This document shows positions 13,777 to 50,330 of a stretch of DNA of 64,000 nt, one piece after another. The translations under genes were made by a program, and so were the position numbers. The notes beneath the pieces were generated by a model that did not search any database, was not told where the DNA came from, and was given only the letters and a program-made list of their open reading frames with translations. Numbering within the stretch: position 1 is the stretch's first letter; the number at the start of each line of letters is the position of its first letter. The stretch spans positions 58,236 through 122,235 of the forward strand of contig NZ_AOJD01000051.1 in assembly GCF_000337415.1 (NCBI RefSeq), in the 5' to 3' direction. This DNA is from Halorubrum tebenquichense DSM 14210. Lineage in GTDB: Archaea; Halobacteriota; Halobacteria; Halobacteriales; Haloferacaceae.

Positions 13777-14031
13777 GACGAGGCTGGGGAGGCGTGAGGT
13801 GCCGTGCGGGGTGGGACTCGAAGGGGCAGTCGGGAGGCGGGCGCAGGCGATGTAAGGACCGCAAGGAGGGAGCAACGCGAGCGACTGAGGACCGCAACGA
13901 GCGTGCGCCCGCCTCCCGACTGGGGCTTCGGCGGCGTTCGTGTCGGTCAGCGATTTATTAGCGAATACGTCTGGCCGAGCGGCTGGGGCTTCGGCGGTGT
14001 TCACCGCAGATCCGCGGTCAAAGATTTATAA
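13777..14031 (+). repeat. Dispersed intergenic element, copy A
   Basis: Fills the 335-base gap between the phosphoesterase and rfcS. Parts, in order: a 23-nt box at 13777-13799 (GACGAGGCTGGGGAGG...) identical to copies B and C; a 19-bp perfect inverted repeat (13827-13845 with 13904-13922); an inner 15-mer AGCAACGCGAGCGAC at 13871-13885, identical in copy C; then two 17-nt motifs with core CTGGGGCTTCGGCGG at 13918-13934 and 13981-13997, 63 bases apart. A TTTATTA box at 13954 lies exactly 27 bases before the second motif; another TATA-like box (TTTATAAAAG) is at 14025-14034. Translation gives no conserved protein. Probably a structured RNA or miniature repeat. Confidence 0.8.
13827..13922 (+). 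ncRNA. Candidate structured RNA: long hairpin inside element copy A
   Basis: Arms 13827-13845 and 13904-13922 are perfectly complementary over 19 bp with a 58-base inner region. In copy C the matching stem (49702-49714 with 49784-49796) keeps pairing although bases differ: pair 4 is T-A here and C-G there, and pair 12 is C-G here and A-T there. Such compensatory changes support function as RNA. Transcription has not been shown. Confidence 0.5.
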
Positions 14032-30253: not shown

Positions 30254-30356
30254 TCGCAGGCGCGCGCCACCGCAGTCGGATTTACACCTAATCGTTCCTC
30301 GCCGACGGTCTGTCGTTCGACAGGGGATACGTGAAGCCGTCCGTCCGCGCGGCTAT

Positions 30357-49442: not shown

Positions 49443-49553
49443 GGCGATCCGCGGCGGGCCGGCGACAAACCGGTGTCGGAACCGGCGACAACGCGCCCCG
49501 GGTTGTCGGTGTCTTACATCACCCCACACGGTTTCTACTGCGCGTGCCGCCGA

Positions 49554-49910
49554 GCGGTCGCCCTCGGCGACCGCGAGGCGCACCGCGCGAGGGAGTCGGC
49601 CGCGACGAGGGCGACCGAAGGGAGCCCGACGGACGCGGCCGACGAGGCTGGGGAGGCGTGAGGTGCGGTTGCTGTGCTGTGCGGGGCGGGAATCGAAGGG
49701 GCAGCCGGGAGGACGAAGACGCGCGACGCAAGCACCGCAGGAGTAAGCAACGCGAGCGACGAGGAGCACAGCGAGCGCATCGAGTCCTCCCGGCTGGGGC
49801 TTCGGCGGTCGTGTCCGTGTTGGTGATCACGTATCGCCGAGCGGCTGGGGCTTCGGCGGTCGTGTCCGTGTTGGTGATCACGTATCGCCGAGCGGCTGAG
49901 GCTTCGGCGG
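49554..49910 (+). repeat. Dispersed intergenic element, copy C, with 51-bp tandem repeats
   Basis: The most complete copy. Order: hairpin GCGGTCGCC-CTC-GGCGACCGC (49554-49574); CGCGCGAGGGAGTCG (49584-49598); the 23-nt box (49641-49663); a 13-bp stem (49702-49714 with 49784-49796) matching copy A by compensatory changes; inner 15-mer AGCAACGCGAGCGAC (49746-49760); then the 17-nt motif at 49792, 49843 and 49894 in a 51-bp tandem array, the third with one change (CTGAGG). It sits within a 560-base stretch (49443-50003) without a supported gene, between the hotdog gene and the SRP RNA. Confidence 0.82.
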
Positions 49911-49986
49911 TCTCGGTCGTGGCGAGGTCAATCGCGTACAGCTAATCGACCCGAGCGTATCCCAACGAACCAGCCGCTAATCAGTC

Positions 49987-49991: not shown

Positions 49992-50003
49992 CTGCGTATG
50001 AAT

Positions 50004-50307
50004 GGCGGACAGGCGGGGGAGCCCGGCGTTCCGTCACGGGGTATCCCGATTGCCTCCTCCACCCCGCGACCCGACGAGCGACGGGCGTCCGGCGGTGGGC
50101 TGCTCGCTTCCGCGCCTGACCCAGTGTCGCCGACGAACCGCGACGGACCGCTCCTGCGAGCGGGCGTCGCGGACCGCTGTCCCCGGCGGACGAGGCTTCC
50201 ACGTTGGCTCTCGGGGCCCGTGCCGGTCTGACCGGACGTGCCCGCTGTTCGGTCCCCGCTAAAGACTGCCTCACGGGTTACGAGCGGGGCCTAACCGCCC
50301 GACCTAG
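50004..50307 (-). ncRNA. Signal recognition particle 7S RNA
   Basis: About 304 bases on the minus strand; ends approximate. The S-domain helix 8 core is recognisable at 50122-50096: GGTCAGGCGCGGAAGCGAGCAGCC, matching the bacterial core GGTCAGGTCCGGAAGGAAGCAGCC including the GGAA tetraloop. The 5' side TAGGTCGGGCGGTTAGG and the 3' side GGGCTCCCCCGCCTGTCC can form the long terminal helix of archaeal SRP RNA, and CGTGGAAGCC-type asymmetric loops are in between. It works with SRP19 and SRP54 to target nascent membrane proteins. The promoter is at 50331-50340 and an oligo-T follows. Confidence 0.93.
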
Positions 50308-50330
50308 TCCGTTCGACGATATTCGGGTCC

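Follow-up and report, generated by a model that had tools for sequence, protein, structure and literature searches.

The locus raises the question of what keeps a long hairpin paired while its sequence changes. The window, by which we mean the whole 64,000-nt stretch of Halorubrum tebenquichense DSM 14210 DNA analysed here, contains two such hairpins, in copies A and C of a repeat, and the first-pass annotation had argued from the differences between them for selection on an RNA structure. The inverted repeat described in copy A is indeed perfect over 19 bp, and the matching stem of copy C retains 13 pairs with exact complementarity (Table 1). The two pairs said to have changed both partners between A and C have done so, pair 4 from T-A to C-G and pair 12 from C-G to A-T, but a count of two is too low: pair 13 (G-C to C-G) had been overlooked, and there too both partners have changed with pairing kept. 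The loop 15-mer reported as identical in both copies is so (13871–13885 and 49746–49760), and it is one among many loop variants in the family, with an AAC loop present in 18 of 202 copies. Folded as RNA, copy A has a z score of -6.8 and copy C of -6.4, each better than 200 of 200 dinucleotide shuffles. What had gone unnoticed is that A and C belong to a dispersed family of about 100 copies. A third member of the family, copy B, lies on the minus strand of the window and has lost the stem.

A modular element and its hairpin

The element has a sharp start at (T)GC/GGTGGCGCGYGCC, beyond which there is no flank conservation (213 copies), and then comprises in order the hairpins P1–P3, the box, a G-rich linker, CTCRAAG-GGG-(P4)-GGG-CTTYGG, and 1–8 tail units of about 51–69 nt each, making up a non-coding, modular whole of roughly 300–450 bp whose right end is not sharp. 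Optional extra two-hairpin modules are found at fixed sites within P4. The 5′ box GAGGCTGGGGAGGCGTGAGG has three matches in the window, where no chance match is expected, and the three copies differ in completeness: copy A is without P1–P3, copy B is without P4, and copy C is nearly complete. At the site of copy A in the sister species G119 (L177) the left half is retained.

Table 1. Coordinates of the family members in the window
Feature	Position	Strand	Remarks
Copy A, conserved 5′ box GACGAGGCTGGGGAGGCGTGAGG	13777–13799	+	left-hand hairpins P1–P3 deleted
Copy A, complete hairpin P4 (about 115 nt)	13817–13931	+	from fold and covariation; outer helix CTCGAAG/CTTCGG, GGG/GGG internal loop, 19-bp stem, inner hairpin with tandem GA mismatches
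Copy A, 19-bp stem, 5′ arm CAGTCGGGAGGCGGGCGCA	13827–13845	+	exact reverse complement of the 3′ arm
Copy A, 19-bp stem, 3′ arm	13904–13922	+	
Copy A, two tail units CTGGGGCTTCGGCGG	13920–14031	+	units at 13920 and 13983
Copy B	30271 to about 29870	-	left end GGTGGCGCGCGCC at 30271; box 30186–30164; other hairpin modules in place of P4
Copy B, two tail units	29975–29961, 29912–29898	-	
Copy C, whole element	49538–49925	+	left hairpins from about 49538; box 49641–49663; P4
Copy C, hairpin P4	49692–49805	+	
Copy C, stem arms	49702–49714 (CAGCCGGGAGGAC) / 49784–49796	+	exactly complementary, 13 pairs
Copy C, three tail units	49794, 49845, 49896	+	

Each tail unit of copy A has a TTTATTA/TTTATAA-like motif about 42 nt further on. 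TTATAAA/TTTATAA is scarce in G119, with 48 occurrences in 1.2 Mb, yet 26 of them have an element within 450 bp, where 1.9 would be expected, and their spacing is constant, about 17 nt ahead of the left end and either 34 or 42 nt past the first tail motif; the motif is also present in the window at 14025. We note too that the archaeal SRP RNA gene (50003–50314) adjoins copy C, and that in many Halorubrum species, though not in every one, an element sits beside this gene, with varying neighbours on the left.

Covariation in a larger alignment, on which the first-pass annotation had made its argument depend, lies far above both shuffled and slid controls. For 46 diverse copies the RNAalifold consensus has 33 pairs, of which 25 show double changes, which is significant covariation of the kind expected of a structured ncRNA. 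Canonical cells account for 97.4% at these 33 pairs and for 28–42% when the partner strand is slid; double-change cells number 234, whereas shuffles give 59 and a slid partner strand 15–29, and not one of 500 shuffles matches the observed covariation values. A tree-based mutual-information test of 172 hairpins, a home-made and rough stand-in for R-scape with 40 simulations under a tree-based null, yields 11 column pairs with E < 0.05, all of them nested in the P4 hairpin and spanning it from the outer R-Y pair to the apical pair. In the inner part of P4, tandem GA mismatches alternate with 2-bp steps, and the apex is a GNA triloop or a G-N-Y-A tetraloop; among 202 hairpins there are 123 GNA triloops, 29 G-N-Y-A loops and four GNRA tetraloops, and 187 have the tandem GA flanks. 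P4 is a real conserved structure, in which sequence changes while pairing is kept.

The mismatches that occur in the stem are informative as to the strand involved. At 13 pairs in 223 hairpins there are 81 G.U and 23 A.C mismatches (counts that do not represent independent events), or 48 and 21 once pair 4 is left out, and because they are G.U rather than A.C, the constraint is placed on one strand, that running from box to tail. The case for selection on a strand-specific fold is strong, and to this extent the original proposal stands; its further step, to RNA as the molecule selected, is less secure, the copies having no fixed orientation to genes and mostly GNA triloops at the apex.

Distribution, mobility and related repeats

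The 20-nt box has 102 copies in the genome of H. tebenquichense itself (up to two mismatches) and is present in all 52 genomes of the genus at 8–182 copies each (up to one mismatch), with zero matches to reversed-pattern controls in either search. Across the class it is found in 63 of 391 genomes, and among the matches listed, records with an exact box are mostly from Halorubrum, the others including Haloparvum, Halorussus and Halobellus. Hairpins starting with GACTGAAAGGGCGAGG and ending with GAGGGCTTTC, located by a search with the starting sequence alone, are present in 41 of 391 haloarchaeal genomes at up to 95 copies. Several of these carry the inner motif ACGYAAGCACCGCA...GAGGAGCGCAGCGAG, as does the Halorubrum hairpin, and the motif common to both types suggests that they form one larger family. 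Relatives in the other haloarchaeal genera, recognised by box or by inner hairpin motif, are patchy. There is no Rfam match at any copy in the window, and relatives from other genera give only sub-threshold chance matches at E up to 1; a literature search by family sequences returned unrelated primer matches only, and the 'short mosaic repeats' of Haloferax were not found in the literature searched. In the genome G105 contig C1 carries all 85 exact boxes and the two remaining contigs carry none, which suggests restriction to the main chromosome. Many contigs of G000 (C23, C34, C35, C43, C56, C58, C64 and C87) begin inside or beside an element, and the repeat family therefore probably breaks short-read assemblies.

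The search for a partner transposase, relaxase or reverse transcriptase found none, and neither did that for an autonomous version: in all fetched loci, box and first tail were never more than 450 nt apart. IS200/605 TnpA (Y1_Tnp) is absent from 11 of the 52 genomes, some of which have as many as 109 and 123 copies, and the TnpA count shows no correlation with copy number; the four TnpB loci of the own genome contain none of the element motifs. The box is absent from viral contigs. Two family members used as queries have no match among phage records, a collection that may not include HRTV-DL1, and few, partial matches among plasmid records, 164 of which (six named Halorubrum) are matched by the own genome's TnpB protein. 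Such near-absence from plasmids and absence from viral contigs is unlike active mobile elements. That the family spread in the past is indicated by its dispersal and patchy occurrence, by empty sites and by internal deletions, and the best reading is of an element not clearly mobile today.

Bacterial REP/BIME sequences are dispersed intergenic palindromes, depleted between divergent genes, with a strand-specific folded hairpin; REPs are 20–40 nt long and linked to RAYT transposases, a form of Y1 transposase. The element described here is likewise a set of dispersed intergenic palindromes with a strand-specific fold and depletion between divergent genes, but it is 300–450 bp long and multi-hairpin, shows saturating covariation, and has no linked RAYT gene, given the Y1_Tnp distribution above.

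The nearest published kind are the PATEs, palindrome-associated transposable elements of Haloquadratum walsbyi (PMC3119063). As there, the element is haloarchaeal, dispersed, intergenic and non-coding, with internal deletions; it has no inverted terminal repeats (the left end is (T)GC/GGTGGCGCGYGCC and the right tail CTGGGGCTTYGG), it has palindromes near its termini (P1/P2 at the left end and P4 near the right), and it is too short to code for a transposase. PATEs share IS605-type transposon ends and have strain-specific insertions without target duplication, whereas for our element no such partner was found and its sites are mostly common to the species; covarying structure is not among the PATE features given in the text consulted. 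Because the sharing of IS605 ends was examined and not found, we do not file the element under PATEs. The SMR-A short mobile repeats of Haloquadratum (PMC3119063) are about 110 bp long, high in copy and without a known transposase, and sit inside palindromes, resembling the optional hairpin modules within P4; SMRs, however, have inverted terminal repeats and target other elements, whereas P4 is almost always within a larger box-bearing element. A transcribed PATE of 489 bp is present in halovirus HRTV-DL1 and Halorubrum lacusprofundi (PMC10544981), a repeat of the same genus, from which our family differs by the lack of phage-record similarity noted above, with the same proviso as to the inclusion of HRTV-DL1.

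Probable exchange of hairpins at shared sites

In 1.2 Mb of G119, the closest relative, 39 of the 45 sites that could be compared have a family member at the same place. For the rfcS locus 25 species have both flanks; the box is present in 21, remnants in two, and the site is empty in two. Two short empty sites in the sister species are without a clean junction, and no target duplication could be established. At 30 sites orthologous with the sister species we count 49 both-arm and 30 one-arm changes, and eight hairpins that have been nearly wholly replaced, orthologous hairpins being either almost unchanged or altered in both arms. This excess of both-arm changes, together with hairpin replacement at orthologous sites, is best explained by whole hairpins being swapped between copies, with a fold constraint keeping the pairing. 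A large share of the compensatory differences seen from copy to copy can stem from such exchange.

Several further observations were made. In two copies (L357:4921-5035 and L077:1543-1655) the inner part of the hairpin is inverted relative to its arms, which points to an inversion at the DNA level within the palindrome. The rfcS gene appears to contain inteins in several Halorubrum genomes (L186, L187, L189), where matches break at query position 609 or an inserted reading frame ends in an intein-like manner. On the G126 chromosome the elements switch orientation close to the best-scoring orc1/cdc6 gene (269.6 kb), with 12 plus and 1 minus exact boxes at 0–245 kb, and 5 plus and 28 minus at 245–1006 kb (Fisher p 2e-6); a genus-wide replication-strand bias was considered and rejected, as it is not real in G105 and holds only for part of G126.

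The folded strand and its possible roles

The best explanation in our judgement, to which we give a probability of roughly 0.4, is a folded single-strand repeat of the REP/PATE type that spread non-autonomously in the past and is now mostly fixed, with its copies exchanging hairpins. The stem belongs to P4, the core of a modular and non-coding repeat that is dispersed over haloarchaeal chromosomes with about 100 copies per genome, mostly between convergent genes. Its G-rich strand, running from box to tail, would act in folded single-stranded form. Having presumably spread as a non-autonomous hairpin element, the copies would today trade whole hairpins by gene conversion, while the constraint on the fold would purge mispaired versions. 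As to whether the folded strand is DNA or RNA, d(GNA) triloops are known as a family of stable DNA loops (PMC5815330) and GCGAAGC an extraordinarily stable DNA hairpin (PMC6582339), and by analogy the loop preferences resemble those of DNA minihairpins. The inner covarying pairs of copy A are reproduced by RNA energy rules and not by the DNA rules used here; a DNA-parameter fold tried for loop counting was set aside, having picked loops outside the covarying register. Folded single-stranded DNA is favoured over RNA only slightly.

A multi-copy structured ncRNA, in which each complete copy has its own promoter and the RNA folds into P1–P4 and acts in trans or as a scaffold, extends the original proposal and is possible, if doubtful. 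It would account for the covariation and GU tolerance, for the agreement of the RNA minimum-energy fold with the covarying structure, and for optional modules at fixed sites, which are like peripheral RNA domains; the TTATAAA/TTTATAA peak about 17 nt before the left end is found in about a third of 224 copies, and the PATE of H. lacusprofundi is highly transcribed (PMC10544981). Yet a TATA-like motif in only a third of copies, which would place the start inside P1, fits it poorly, as do the avoidance of GNRA loops, a copy number ranging from 8 to 182 with half-deleted copies common, and the lack of an Rfam match. Nor do we give much weight to a cis-acting mRNA element of the neighbouring genes, such as a 3′ UTR stabiliser or terminator, which we regard as very improbable indeed. 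The 125 gene contexts (52 convergent, 16 divergent, 26 tandem sense and 31 tandem antisense) do show an enrichment between convergent genes in its favour, and they agree with the avoidance of promoters by the intergenic palindromes of REP/BIME. The tandem sites, being without sense preference while the constraint is strand-specific, argue against a role in neighbouring mRNAs.

Two other readings dispense either with past-only movement or with selection. A strict-sense PATE, meaning a non-autonomous transposon of IS200/IS605 type that is still moved by a TnpA, has in its favour the near-terminal palindromes without inverted terminal repeats, the lack of coding length and the empty sites in sister genomes; as its ends are not common to the own-genome TnpB loci, more than 100 copies persist in genomes without TnpA and no TnpA correlation is seen, and phage records give no match to the family and plasmids hardly any, we think it very unlikely. 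Neutral hairpin repeats, kept paired without selection by gene conversion and quasi-palindrome correction (one arm being copied from the other in replication), would agree with the excess of both-arm changes and whole swaps at orthologous sites and with the inverted inner hairpin in two copies. Neither process, however, predicts the excess of GU over AC, and the near-invariant tandem GA and GNA loops and the separate covariation at 25 pairs, inner helices included, are equally unpredicted; the neutral reading is improbable, and already disfavoured.

The preferred reading, of a REP/PATE-type repeat folding as a single strand, has a broader form that we put forward tentatively and hold to be rather unlikely in full: a patchy haloarchaeal family whose heritable information is a single-strand fold, carried by about 100 hairpin-swapping copies, and which has a host function as single-stranded DNA landmarks or as an RNA family. 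The family has no Rfam entry, and searching the literature for its sequences did not turn it up. Should it have a host function, archaea would possess a structured element spread over the whole chromosome; if there is none, it would be a very clear natural case of covariation spreading by exchange between copies, which is relevant wherever covariation is taken as proof of RNA function.
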